Positions 1,644-64,000 of a stretch of DNA of 64,000 nucleotides are shown here, one piece after another. Below the pieces are notes generated by a model. It was given only the letters and a program-made list of their open reading frames with translations, ran no database searches and had not been told where the DNA came from. The DNA lies in assembly GCF_024127895.1 (NCBI RefSeq), contig NZ_JAMYBK010000004.1, positions 62,001 through 126,000 of the forward strand, written 5' to 3'. A program made the translations under genes and the position numbers. The stretch comes from Pseudomonas guariconensis. GTDB taxonomy: Bacteria; Pseudomonadota; Gammaproteobacteria; Pseudomonadales; Pseudomonadaceae. Every line of letters starts with the position of its first letter. Within the stretch, counting starts at the first letter, position 1.

Positions 1644-4600
1644 TCAACCGTGGTGAGGCTTGTGCTCCTCGGTGGTTTCCAGGGGCTGTTGCTCGGCCAC
1701 TTCCGGTTGCTCGGCCGCAGGCGCTTGCTGCTCGATAGCTTCGGGCTGGGCCTCCTGCTGGGCCGCCGCCTGGGCAGCGGCGGCAGCGGCGGCGGCCGCT
1801 GCTGCAGCTTCGGCCTCGCGCTTGCGACGACGCACTTCACGCGGGTCGTTCGGGGCGCGGCCGTTGGGCAGCATCACGGTGGCGGGCTCGGCCGGGGCTG
1901 GGGCTTCGGCTGGGGTTGGCTCGGCGGCGGCCGGGGAGGCCTCGGTCACTTCCGGCGTGGCCTCGACGACAGCGGCTGGTTGCTCGACGACTGGCGTCTC
2001 GACCGGCGCCTGCTCGGCGACCACTGCTGGCTCGGCTTCACCGCCTTCGACCGCAGGCGCCTGCTCGACAGCTTCAGCTTCGGTAACGGGCTGCGGCACG
2101 ACTTCGACCACTGGCTCGGCGCTTGGCTCGACCACGGCGACAGGTTCGCTGACCGGCTGCTCGACCACTGGGGCGGCGGCGGTTTCCTCGGCCTGGGCAG
2201 CCTGTTCGGCTGGCTGGCTGACGGTTTCGGCCTCGCGGGTAACGGCAGTGGCGAGCTCTGCCTGCTGGTTGGCCTGGGCCTCGGCTTCGGCGCTGATGTT
2301 GCTGCTGGCGACGGCAGCGGTCACGGCCAGGCCGGCAGCCAGTTCGGCACCCAGCTCGGTGGCCTTGTGTGGCTGTGGCTGCTGCTCGCCGCTGGCTTCT
2401 TCCTCGCCACCTTCGATCAGCTCGCCATTGGCGTTGCGCTGGCGTTCGCGGCGGTTGCTGCGACGACGCTGGCCACGGGAGCGGCGGCGTGGGCGTTCGC
2501 CATCGGTGCCTTCCTGTTGTTCGTCCTGCAGCAGTTCCTCGTTCGGCAGTTGCTCCTCGGCCGCTTCGGCAGCCTGCTCGGCAGCGCGTGGCTGACGTTC
2601 TTCACGTGGCGGACGTGGCTGGCGCTCTTCGCGCTCGACACGTTCTTCGCGTGGCGCACGCTCTTCACGCGGTGCACGTTCCTCACGTGGAGCACGTTCT
2701 TCGCGTGGAGCACGTTCTTCGCGCGGTGCGCGTTCCTCGCGTGGGGCGCGCTCTTCACGGGGCGCACGCTCCTCGCGTGGTGCGCGTTCTTCACGTGGCG
2801 CACGCTCCTCGCGGGTTACGCGCTCTTCGCGCGGTGCGCGTTCCTCACGTGGGGCGCGCTCTTCACGGGGCTGGCGCTCCTCGCGGGCGGCAGGGGCTGC
2901 ATCCAGCGGCTCGCGCAGTTCGCGAACGCGTTCCTCGCGGTTGCCGCGACGGTCTTCGCGTGGCTGGCGCGGCTGGCGCTCCTCGCGTGGTGCACGTTCT
3001 TCACGCGGGGCACGCTCTTCACGCGCCTGGCGCTCCTCGCGCGGGGCGCGCTCGCTGCGCTCTTCGCGTGGCTTGCGGTCTTCCTCGCGGCGACCACCGC
3101 GGTTGCGGCTCTGCTGGCGGCCGTTGCGGCGCTCCTCGTTGCGCTGCGTGCGCTCGGTGGTGGGCTTGGCGGGGGTGGCGGCCGGTGCGGCGGCAGGCTC
3201 TTCCTTGCCGGCGAACAGGCTGACCAGGGATTTCACCAGGCCCTTGAACAGGCTCGGCTCGGGAACGCTGGGCGCGGCTGCGACCGGCGCGGCGGGCTGT
3301 TGCTCGGGCGTGCTCGGCAGCGGTGCATTGGCGCGGGCCGGCGCGGTCTTGACCGCAGCTTCCTGGCGAACCAGGGTGCGGGTCGCGGTCGGCTGGGGCG
3401 CTTCTTCCGTTTCGGCGGCGGCGATCTCGTAGCTGGACTGGCTGTTCAGCACGTCCGGGTTGTCGTCGCGCAGGCGCTGGACTTCGAAGTGCGGGGTTTC
3501 CAGGTGATCGTTCGGCAGGATGATGATGCGCGCACGGGTGCGCAGTTCGATCTTGGTGATCGAGTTGCGCTTTTCGTTCAGCAGGAAGGCGGCGACCGGG
3601 ATCGGCACCTGGGCGCGAACCTCGGCGGTGCGGTCCTTCAGGGCCTCTTCCTCGATCAGACGCAGGATCGCCAGGGACAGCGACTCGACGTCACGGATGA
3701 TGCCGGTGCCCGAGCAGCGCGGGCAGACGATGCCGCTGCTTTCGCCGAGCGATGGGCGCAGGCGCTGGCGGGACATCTCCAGCAGGCCGAAGCGCGAGAT
3801 GCGGCCGACCTGCACGCGGGCACGGTCGGCCTCGAGGCATTCGCGCACGCGCTCTTCCACGGCGCGCTGGTTCTTCGCCGGGGTCATGTCGATGAAGTCG
3901 ATGACGATCAGGCCGCCGATGTCGCGCAGGCGCAGCTGGCGGGCGATTTCCTCGGCCGCTTCCAGGTTGGTCTGCAGGGCGGTTTCCTCGATGTCGCTAC
4001 CCTTGGTGGCGCGCGCCGAGTTGATGTCGATGGACACCAGGGCCTCGGTCGGGTCGATGACGATCGAGCCGCCCGATGGCAGGTCGACCACGCGCTGGAA
4101 GGCGGTCTCGATCTGGCTTTCGATCTGGAAACGGTTGAACAGCGGGACGCTGTCCTCGTACAGCTTGACCTTGCTGGCGTACTGCGGCATCACCTGGCGG
4201 ATGAAGGTCAGGGCTTCTTCCTGGGCGTCGATGCTGTCGATCAGCACCTCGCCGATGTCCTGGCGCAGGTAGTCGCGGATGGCGCGGATGATGACGTTGC
4301 TTTCCTGGTAGATCAGGAAAGGCGCGGCGCGGTCCTGGGAGGCTTCCTTGATGGCGGTCCACAGCTGCAGGAGGTAGTCGAGGTCCCACTGCATTTCTTC
4401 GCTGCTGCGGCCAAGGCCGGCGGTGCGCACGATCAGGCCCATGTCGGCGGGGACGGTCAGGCCGTTGAGGGCCTCGCGCAGTTCGTTGCGCTCCTCGCCT
4501 TCGATGCGGCGGGAGATACCGCCGGCGCGGGGGTTGTTGGGCATCAGCACCAGGTAGCGGCCAGCCAGGCTGATGAAGGTGGTCAGGGCGGCGCCTTTGT

Positions 4601-4925
4601 TGCCGCGCTCTTCCTTCTCGACCTGGACGATGACTTCCTGGCCCTCGCTCAGCACTTCCTTGATGTTGACGCGGCCTTCGGGGGCCTTCTTGAAGTACTC
4701 GCGGGAGATTTCCTTCAGCGGCAGGAAGCCGTGGCGTTCGGAACCGAAGTCGACGAAAGCCGCTTCGAGGCTGGGTTCGATCCGGGTGATCTTGCCTTTG
4801 TAGATGTTGGCCTTTTTCTGCTCACGCGCGCCGGACTCGATGTCCAGGTCGTAGAGACGTTGGCCGTCCACCAGGGCTACACGCAACTCTTCGGGTTGAG
4901 TCGCGTTAATCAGCATTCTTTTCAT
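1644..4925 (-). CDS. rne: Ribonuclease E
   Basis: Essential endoribonuclease and scaffold of the RNA degradosome, a protein of 1093 residues. The catalytic half begins [10 protein letters not shown], has an S1 RNA-binding domain (about residues 35-120), the metal-binding aspartates in VSIDINSA and IVIDFIDM, and the zinc-link CPRC near residue 404. The C-terminal half is disordered: arginine- and glutamate-rich repeats, Pro/Ala/Val/Glu-rich stretches, a run of about 12 alanines and a His-containing tail. I chose this start over an upstream in-frame one because MKRMLIN is the conserved family N-terminus. A long leader precedes it, in line with known autoregulation of rne by its own 5' UTR in E. 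coli. Confidence 0.96.
2649..2810 (-). repeat. 18-bp tandem repeat inside rne (nine EERAPR units)
   Basis: Nine consecutive copies of the hexapeptide EERAPR, exactly 162 bp, are bounded by EERVTR upstream and EERVER downstream. Imperfect copies ([12 protein letters not shown]) extend the array on both sides. The DNA units differ mainly at third positions. It encodes a highly charged, probably helical or disordered segment in the RNA-binding and scaffold half of RNase E. Confidence 0.9.
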
Positions 4926-60724: not shown

Positions 60725-60996
60725 GAAGCTTTAGTTTTCGCTGGGAACGGGAATGGCCACGTGGAAAATCGAACGGATACTGGGCATTTTTCCACGAAAC
60801 CTCGGGCGCTCGATGCATTGAATCTCGAACGATGGCCCTGTTCAACACCTGAAAACGACTGATGCACCAGGGGCTGCAGGGTTACGGAAGGGTAAAGGAT
60901 AAGCCTGGTCGATGATAGGGTTTGGACCTGGGTCAATGCCAGTGGCCTGGGCGCTTAAAAGGCTGGAGTGGGCGGCTTGCACTCGCACCGCAGGGT

Positions 60997-61348
60997 TCAG
61001 CTAAGGATGAAGGCCAGCAGGTCGGCGTTTATCTCGTCGGCGTTAGTGGTCGGCATGTCGTGGGGAAGCCGGCGTAGGTCTTGAGTGTGCCGTTACGCAG
61101 CAGCTTGGCGCAGAGCGGGCCTGAGTTGTCATAGGGCACGATCTGGTCGTCATCGCCATGCATCACCAGCACCGGCACCGTCACGCTTTTCAGGCTTTCG
61201 GTGAAGTCGGTCTGGGAGAAGGCGACGATCCCGTCGTAGTGCGCGATGGCACAGCCCATCATGCCCTGGCGCCGCCAGTTGAGGATCACGCCCTGGTCCG
61301 CTTTGGCGCCTGGGCGGTTATAGCCATGGAACGGGCGACCACAGCCTT
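60997..61348 (-). pseudogene. Truncated and frameshifted alpha/beta hydrolase (non-haem haloperoxidase-like)
   Basis: Reads RPFHGYNRPGAKADQGV, then VLVMHGDDDQIVPYDNSGPL, then LKTYAGFP, the C-terminal 40 percent of a chloroperoxidase-type hydrolase with the acid Asp. After GFP a missing C shifts the frame; restoring it continues HDMPTTNADEINADLLAFILS to a stop. The N-terminal part with the nucleophile Ser is gone. The 270 bp between this remnant and the nitrilase-like gene contain nothing I can assign. Confidence 0.85.
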
Positions 61349-61413
61349 GTTATGAGCTAAGTGCAACGGGTCGGGGGGGGGGCTTCAGCCACTTCGCCCC
61401 TTGGCTCTGCAGG

Positions 61414-61444
61414 ACTCCAGGATTAAAGTGCACTTTAAGGTCAA
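61414..61444 (-). promoter_or_regulatory. MerR-type promoter with 19-bp spacer and dyad
   Basis: On the minus strand TTGACC, a 19-nt spacer containing the perfect palindrome TTAAAGTGCACTTTAA, and TGGAGT. An overlong spacer with the operator inside it is the hallmark of promoters twisted into shape by MerR activators. It faces the haloperoxidase remnant and starts 22 bp before the merR gene. Confidence 0.8.
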
Positions 61445-61466
61445 TCCATTTCAGAAGGTGTGTCCC

Positions 61467-61931
61467 ATGAGAATCGGAGAGCTGGCCAGGATCACCGGCC
61501 TGGCCCCTTCGCGCATCCGCTTCTACGAGGCGAGCGGGCTGATCCAGTCGGTCGCGCGCAAGGCCAACGGCTACCGCGATTATTCGGCCGACGCGGTGTG
61601 GGTGCTGGAGATGATCACCAGTGCCCAGGCGGCCGGGTTTTCCCTGGAAGAGATCCGCCACCTGTTGCCGGTCGATTCGAACGGTTGGCAGCATGACGAA
61701 CTGCTCCAGGGGCTCAAGCGCAAGGTCGAGGAAATCGAAGTGCTGCAACAGCGCCTGGCACACAACAAGGAGCAGTTGCTGCTGGTGATCGATGTCATCC
61801 AGAGCAAGCCCGAGGGCATGCCGTGCGTGGACAATACCCAGCGGGTGTTGAATCGGCTGCGCGAAGAGATCGCCCTGGGCAAGGCGAGCGTTGCGCCTGC
61901 ACATGAGCAAGCTGGCAGGGCGCTGAAGTAG
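61467..61931 (+). CDS. MerR-family regulator
   Basis: A 154-residue activator. Winged helix at residues 1-70 (MRIGELARITGLAPSRIRFYE), long dimerisation helix at about 80-115, and a C-terminal segment with a single Cys (GMPCVDN). It lacks the Cys pair of metal sensors, so an organic or redox signal is more likely. The only recognisable operator is the divergent 19-bp-spacer promoter just upstream. Confidence 0.9.
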   Translation: MRIGELARITGLAPSRIRFYEASGLIQSVARKANGYRDYSADAVWVLEMITSAQAAGFSLEEIRHLLPVDSNGWQHDELLQGLKRKVEEIEVLQQRLAHNKEQLLLVIDVIQSKPEGMPCVDNTQRVLNRLREEIALGKASVAPAHEQAGRALK

Positions 61932-61970
61932 GGCGGGCGTCGACGCGGGCTGTCGCCGCCTGCATCGTCA

Positions 61971-62978
61971 TCACTTGCCCGCGTTCAGCGCTGCCAGTGG
62001 CTTGGGCGCATACAGGGCGCTCTGGAACTCGGGCACGTATTCGTATTTCACCAGCTTGCCCAGCTTCAACGAGCGGATGTAGGTCGACAGGCTGCCTTCA
62101 CCGAGCACCAGCTCTGCCGAGTCCGCGCTCATGCTCGATGCATGGCGGGTCTGCCTGGACGTTGCATAGCCGTAGGTCAACTGGCCGTCGTGGTCGAGGT
62201 TGGTGAAGCTGTTCGTCACCAGGTCGGCTTCATGGGACAGGCCGTCGAGTTTCTTCGCCTTGAAGGTCACATCGACCTTGCCGGTCTGGTCGTCGAAGAG
62301 GTCGTACGAGACCGTCGCGGCTTCCTCTCGGCGGTTGATGTCTGTCAGCCATTTCGGCAGGTTGTAGCCCACCACGCCCCGCACACGTGCGAGCTCCGTG
62401 TTCACTGGGAGCTTGAGTACGTAACCCCAGAAGTCTTTCGACAGCGACTGCCCGATCAGGGTGAAGGGCCCGAGATTCGCTTTGCCAGGTTTGTTGGTGA
62501 TGATCGACAGCGCGATTTCGTTGTAGCTGTCGTTGTCGCAGTAGTCGTAGGTGTAGGCCGTGAACGCCACCAGGCCCCGCCCCGGCCATACCTGCAGGGG
62601 CTGCACCTGCTCCAGCACCTGGGCCGGTATCAATGCGCGCAGGCGTTCGAGATCGGCCGTGTAGACAGCGGTCACGCGGCTGTTCTGGTAGTAGAAGTTC
62701 GGCGAGTAGGACTCGAACCCCATATCGACCTTGGTTTTTTCCAGGCCTTTGAACCAGCTCAAGTCCATGCCTGGCGCTTGGGCCTGGATCACCGACAGGG
62801 GAGGGTTGGAGCGGTAACGGTCGTACAGCCCGCCTTTGAGCACGGGCACCGGGTGACCCGCGATATCGATCACCGTGGTGTCGGCGTGCTTGGGGAGGCC
62901 GTTGGCGTCTGCCAGGGCGGCGTTCGCTAGGGGGGTCAGGAGTATGCCAGTCAGTGTGGCGACGGTTCCGAGTTTCAC
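61971..62978 (-). CDS. Exported acetoacetate-decarboxylase-like protein
   Basis: A 335-residue protein with a signal peptide (about residues 1-21). The body resembles the ADC fold: SPNFYYQNSRVTAVYTADLERLRALIPAQVLEQ, VAFTAYTYDYCDNDSYNEIALS, and LARVRGVVGYNLPKWLTDI. A lysine in VLKLPV or LPKW may match the catalytic Lys, but I cannot align it with certainty. Secreted ADC-like proteins exist in pseudomonads; substrate unknown. Confidence 0.7.
   Translation of the reverse strand: MKLGTVATLTGILLTPLANAALADANGLPKHADTTVIDIAGHPVPVLKGGLYDRYRSNPPLSVIQAQAPGMDLSWFKGLEKTKVDMGFESYSPNFYYQNSRVTAVYTADLERLRALIPAQVLEQVQPLQVWPGRGLVAFTAYTYDYCDNDSYNEIALSIITNKPGKANLGPFTLIGQSLSKDFWGYVLKLPVNTELARVRGVVGYNLPKWLTDINRREEAATVSYDLFDDQTGKVDVTFKAKKLDGLSHEADLVTNSFTNLDHDGQLTYGYATSRQTRHASSMSADSAELVLGEGSLSTYIRSLKLGKLVKYEYVPEFQSALYAPKPLAALNAGK

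Positions 62979-64000
<1,022 letters not shown>

Follow-up and report, generated by a model that had tools for sequence, protein, structure and literature searches.

An intact transcriptional regulator that faces a broken target gene raises the question of what it still regulates. Such a pair is found in the stretch of DNA analysed here (the window, 64,000 nucleotides, C4:62001-126000 of the 5.34-Mb genome G000), in which a MerR-type gene stands opposite the remnant of a hydrolase gene, and an earlier note on the window had offered three answers: a non-coding RNA driven from the former target promoter, regulation of the regulator by itself only, or targets elsewhere. The reading regarded here as quite probable is that of a small MerR regulon which would have lost one of its arms, the remnant being dead and self-control being retained together with the control of an acetoacetate-decarboxylase-like (ADC-like) gene and an old-yellow-enzyme (OYE) gene.

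Regulator, operator and hydrolase remnant

The merR gene (61467-61931, plus strand) is an open frame of 154 amino acids with a single cysteine (C120), whose product scores above the gathering scores of PF13411, PF09278 and PF00376 (MerR helix-turn-helix and DNA-binding region), which bears out its earlier description as intact. The closest named matches of the protein are from Pseudomonas and show at most 86% identity, and no very close relative of the locus was found in the collections searched. Of the 201 loci encoding a relative of the protein, the best 80 (L060-L139) were kept, and all counts given for the 80 relatives refer to loci picked because a merR match is encoded; that the frame reaches at least 133 amino acids in 80 of 80 has to be read with this selection in mind. 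C120 is invariant in all 81 rows (window plus 80 relatives), residue 54 is Gln in the window and in all 81 rows, and residue 52, which is Ser in the window, is Cys in 9 of the 81. Median pN/pS values of merR are 0.24 for the window versus eight partner-bearing close relatives and 0.22 for these relatives among themselves. At one further locus (L024, G023:C1:3713382-3713498), a merR fragment was seen of which only 39 residues match, with 87% identity.

Between merR and the remnant lies a perfect 16-bp palindrome, TTAAAGTGCACTTTAA (61423-61438), similar operators being present in the relatives. The palindrome reported in the earlier note is thus real and goes beyond chance, as it is the single match in the window at up to three mismatches (0.02 expected), and the genome-wide search proposed there yields one more place at up to two mismatches. 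The operator is part of a divergent promoter of the form TTGACC-N19-TGGAGT (61414-61444, minus strand), which faces the remnant and has kept its -35 element and operator, but lacks the -11 A of its -10 element. In the ancestral state, one operator would have been common to two overlapping and oppositely directed promoters: that of merR itself, with its -10 element in the operator, where binding of MerR would repress, and the promoter with the 19-bp spacer, from which MerR would have switched on the divergent hydrolase.

This hydrolase was a chloroperoxidase-like (CPO) alpha/beta hydrolase of 276 amino acids, of which the window retains only a remnant (60997-61337, minus strand). About 60% of the gene is gone from its 5' end, since the remnant aligns to residues 165-276 only, and a frameshift near residue 254, within a C-rich run, splits it into two parts, matching residues 165-255 and, in another frame, residues 254-276 of the intact protein of a relative; both lesions had been described correctly before. 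Residues 1-164 are missing together with the nucleophile region, including the sequence GHSTGG, which we take to be the nucleophile motif, and the presumed His of the triad is located beyond the frameshift; nucleophile, acid and His do not occur in one frame of the remnant. An open frame of 86 amino acids is still present. The suggested comparison with relatives carrying the full gene is possible, as an intact 276-aa hydrolase gene faces merR within 400 bp in 29 of the 80 relatives. The in-frame part of the remnant (approximately 91 codons) has a pN/pS of 0.22, barely above the 0.17 of eight intact copies, and the loss is therefore recent or the test weak.

Further genes with the same promoter type

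A 31-bp promoter motif, defined after the ADC site of the window had been seen, occurs at up to three mismatches in three places of the 5.3-Mb genome, namely at the remnant, at the ADC-like gene and at an OYE gene; all three sites have a spacer of 19 bp, in keeping with the overlong spacers (19-20 bp) of the MerR family, and a reversed-pattern control found 0 places. The ADC-like gene (61971-62978, minus strand; 335 amino acids) adjoins merR and is the proposed surviving local target. Its MerR-type promoter, TTGATA-N19-TAGGGT (63068-63098, minus strand), lies 90 bp upstream and contains an imperfect palindrome, and related sites are found at the ADC genes of relatives. The protein matches PF06314 with an E value of 4e-6 and 27.0 bits, slightly short of the gathering score of 29.8, and the gene shows 76% identity to its counterpart next to merR in L081. 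Its median pN/pS is 0.22 for the window versus eight close relatives and 0.26 among these relatives, and by this measure both merR and the ADC-like gene look maintained. Beside it, at 63351-63998, lies a distantly related flavin oxidoreductase, which shows 31% identity to the OYE of L124 over half its length and has no MerR-type motif in front of it. The OYE gene proper is located on another contig (C25), with its site 30 bp from the ATG, and is 83-86% identical to those OYE genes that accompany merR and ADC in the loci L063 and L066-L070.

In the relatives, homologues of these motif-bearing target genes cluster with merR. When the 80 loci were searched for the motif (up to three mismatches, up to 330 bp upstream), it was found before 59 of 59 OYE genes, 28 of 29 CPO genes and 5 of 5 members of a second ADC family, as well as before 10 of 25 ADC and 2 of 11 SDH genes. 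For PfpI genes, the counts are 5 of 7 with a short query and 5 of 17 with a long one, two sets that may share genes, leaving 12 of the 17 long-form genes without a site. Among 338 control frames of at least 200 amino acids, which were picked mechanically and are not all real genes, only three are preceded by the motif, and all three face merR. Eleven of the 15 ADC genes that lack a site are situated behind a PfpI gene; in the remaining four (L066, L067, L069 and L070), a variant site is present that falls short of the cut-off. Good motifs facing merR are also seen in front of a 317-aa frame in L060 and a 342-aa frame in L110; both frames, lying upstream of merR, are possible further members of the regulon.

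A wider view is provided by 398 genomes of the genus, in which merR was called present at E values up to 1e-30 and the motif was searched at a stricter setting of up to one mismatch. The motif occurs in 147 of 179 merR-bearing versus 2 of 219 merR-lacking genomes, so that 147 of 149 motif carriers have merR, a figure inflated because many of the matches are the merR-facing site itself; 32 of the 179 merR-bearing genomes have no match at this setting. Both exceptions, inspected over stretches of 3 kb, fit the regulon model. In one of them (L194, G295, 1345-2427), the merR match covers 46 residues only, and hydrolase and promoter are intact; the stretch from the other shows an ADC match of 68 residues only and nothing that matches merR. 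L194 is in this respect the mirror image of the window.

From this distribution of sites, it is very likely that MerR has other targets besides the remnant, and the earlier suggestion of targets elsewhere is upheld by the same promoter type before an adjacent ADC-like and a distant OYE gene and by the joint occurrence of motif and merR across the genus. The opposite view, that MerR now controls itself only and that the sites at the ADC and OYE genes serve another MerR protein or are fossils, could draw on the imperfect ADC dyad, on the other MerR-type genes of the genome (five further matches, E up to 0.001) and on the proposed merR promoter, which shares sequence with the operator and persists in loci without a partner. 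It appears improbable nevertheless in view of three motif sites in one genome, of the OYE site in every one of the 59 cases at relatives' merR loci and of the co-occurrence in the genus. Of the claim that the gene regulates only itself, the self-regulation may therefore stand, by virtue of the overlapping promoter, and the exclusiveness does not, in view of the ADC and OYE sites. In the regulon with one lost arm, which remains the preferred reading, the surviving MerR would act through promoters of the same kind on no fewer than two further enzyme genes, one of them the ADC-like neighbour of merR and the other the OYE gene on another contig. This continued control of itself and of these genes would explain why merR, the promoter from which it is read and the operator are still there.

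Two proposed promoters on one operator

The outer half of the operator reads TAAAGT on the opposite strand, and the proposed merR promoter of the window consists of TTGGCT (61401-61406), 17 bp and this TAAAGT (61424-61429, within the operator), covering 61401-61429 on the plus strand. For comparison, the 81 loci were divided by whether merR is faced, at a distance of up to 400 bp, by an intact partner gene (hydrolase, OYE or PfpI), which is found in 50 and missing in 31, including the window. A TTGG or TTGA box 16-18 bp upstream of TAAAGT is present in 28 of the 50 partner loci and in 19 of the 31 orphan loci, against a background of 24 in 3078 positions (0.8%); two partner loci (L104 and L107) are unreadable at this position and were scored as misses, and the box is absent from a group of OYE-partnered loci (L122, L125, L126, L128-L130, L135, L136 and L138). 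A fixed distance of 17 bp throughout, which had also been considered, proved wrong, as the box-bearing relatives mostly show 18 bp and the window 17. The simplest reading is that box and TAAAGT represent merR's own promoter, whose -10 element would lie inside the operator.

The elements of the divergent promoter are distributed differently. Its -35 sequence TTGAC is found in 49/50 loci with a partner versus 9/31 without, and its -10 pattern TA...T in 46/50 (26/29 where the partner is a hydrolase) versus 7/31. The half of the operator on the side of the divergent gene, which reads ACTTTAA or ACTTCAA, occurs in 48/50 and 27/31, respectively, and by a stricter score of the whole operator the values fall from 42/50 to 19/31. 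Correction for relatedness reduces the number of independent cases. On the best tree the partner state has to change 10 times, and the starred branches force 6 changes. In the six well-supported pairs, loss of the -35 element follows loss of the partner in 3.5 cases on average, compared with 1.0 for the outer operator half and 1.6 for the whole-operator score; changes in the opposite direction are almost absent (a few of 200 pairings contain one such pair), and with six pairs the median p is below 0.05 for no trait. The operator would outlast the decayed divergent promoter because the -10 element of merR lies inside it, and it is probably for this overlap that it has been kept.

In the window itself, the -10 element reads TGGAGT instead of the TAGAGT or TACAGT of close relatives with an intact hydrolase. 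Its second base is G, compared with A in 48 of the 50 loci with an intact partner, and this position corresponds to the -11 A, the adenosine to which the highest conservation within a -10 element is ascribed (PMC9909328). The loss is a strong but not absolute sign of a dead promoter, because two partner-bearing loci (L095 and L103) have lost the A as well, and the change need not by itself kill the promoter, because three hydrolase-bearing relatives likewise lack TA...T. The earlier term 'textbook' promoter therefore applies to the 19-bp spacer of the minus-strand element, but not to its -10 sequence.

Continued use of the promoter, with the remnant yielding either a short peptide or a non-coding RNA, would agree with the survival of the -35 element, the operator and the 19-bp spacing, with the 86-aa frame and with the -10 sequence TGAAGA in L095, whose hydrolase is intact; against it stand the missing -11 A and the lack of TA...T in 24 of the 31 partnerless loci, and we give it very little credence. 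A non-coding RNA in particular, as the earlier note had envisaged, is unlikely and further disfavoured by an Rfam search of both strands of 60725-61970, which gave no family match up to an E value of 1.

The interval between promoter and remnant contains, at 61338-61382, a run of ten G (61373-61382) and the 35 bases that separate it from the remnant. These 35 bases match no other genome's locus among the 40 blastn matches listed, and no repeats of at least 12 bases were found in 61200-61500. A truncated form shared with relatives, considered earlier as an argument against decay, did not come to light: when the 398 genomes were searched at the DNA level, no match listed except that of the window spans the junction of promoter and remnant. 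An intact hydrolase gene misassembled near the G run is hardly credible, even with the long homopolymer in front of the remnant and the frameshift in a C-rich run, as no other place in the genome holds a highly identical copy of the missing 5' part (one long match to a paralogue at 67%, the others touching it at 27-41%) and the separate -10 change likewise marks decay. This paralogue (L152, G000:C36:1-10000; 3680-4654, plus strand) is an intact chloroperoxidase-like gene with a signal-like N-terminal extension, 67% identical to the hydrolase of L081; it adjoins a different MerR gene and genes which by eye resemble SDR and katG, and the three motif sites all lie on other contigs. With this paralogue present, the lost copy may have become dispensable. 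The gene decay in one arm of a living regulon thus envisaged for the window lineage, by loss of 60% of the hydrolase from its 5' end, of its frame and of the -11 A of its promoter, is a mostly ordinary event.

Proposed regulon and known MerR-type systems

The case nevertheless turns an odd regulator beside a dead target into a small regulon that is open to testing, and it suggests a cause for the persistence of the operator, in that the divergent promoter is eroded one base at a time and the half which doubles as the regulator's -10 element stays. Genomes with and without the partner, side by side, form a natural series on the loss of regulon members, and they advise caution, as a conserved operator is no proof that the facing gene is still regulated. 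A description of this MerR regulon was not found among the papers listed by searches of an open library; of most interest here are the proposed regulon and the way in which an activator promoter decays and its operator, which is probably autoregulatory, is kept.

The layout of the locus, its decay, the distribution of the motif and its joint occurrence with merR are shown by the sequences, and from them we infer that MerR binds these sites, activates the enzyme genes and represses itself. The targets (OYE, DJ-1/PfpI, hydrolase and ADC), together with the AdhR operator described below, suggest an electrophile or carbonyl as signal, and our guess is a reactive carbonyl or other electrophile sensed by C120. 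A more general proposal is tentative and rather doubtful as a whole: a MerR subfamily of Pseudomonas and other Proteobacteria would sense a reactive molecule through C120 and command a modular set of detoxifying enzymes (OYE, chloroperoxidase-like hydrolase, ADC-like, DJ-1/PfpI and saccharopine-dehydrogenase-like), mostly from their own promoters, with members dropping out repeatedly and the operator outliving its target as the regulator's own promoter.

In Pseudomonas aeruginosa, PA2717 is named a chloroperoxidase precursor (PMC7685553) and may be better matched by the C36 paralogue beside the different MerR; PA2717 and PA2718 should be neighbours, as judged from their gene numbers. ChIP-seq data for PA2718 (PMC13086498) were set aside as binding evidence, as PA2718 may not be the orthologue of the window MerR.

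Regulators of the MerR family activate transcription by distorting the DNA in response to an effector. The metal-sensor branch of the family (CueR, ZntR, CadR and MerR) shares with the window protein the N-terminal DNA-binding domain and the palindrome in a 19-bp spacer, but the classified neighbours of the window-type merR are enzymes rather than metal pumps. Sensors of the CueR type carry two metal-binding cysteines in a C-terminal loop. The best curated match of the window MerR is indeed CueR (TIGR02044), at 70.6 versus a cut-off of 147.4, and no curated cut-off is reached among the 13 NCBIfam families listed; the best-matching solved structures are also those of CueR, and the alignment with it stops at residue 113, so that only its position puts C120 where CueR has its metal loop. 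Metal sensing of the CueR kind is unlikely because of the single cysteine.

AdhR and NmlR are carbonyl- and redox-responsive MerR regulators, a class induced by formaldehyde, methylglyoxal or similar compounds. One target of AdhR, YraA, is reportedly of the DJ-1/PfpI type, and the AdhR operator, CTTAAAG-N4-CTTTAAG, is nearly identical to that of the window. Like the window MerR, AdhR has a single conserved cysteine, and it is reported to need C54 (PMC3499171). By comparison of residue numbers rather than by alignment, the window protein has Gln54 and Ser52 at this place and its cysteine at 120. The class score is not reached either, as the NmlR model gives 46.7 against a cut-off of 175. In Escherichia coli, NemR controls the old-yellow-enzyme reductase NemA in electrophile stress. 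It would resemble the regulator of the window in the control of an OYE, but is a repressor of the TetR family and not a MerR protein.
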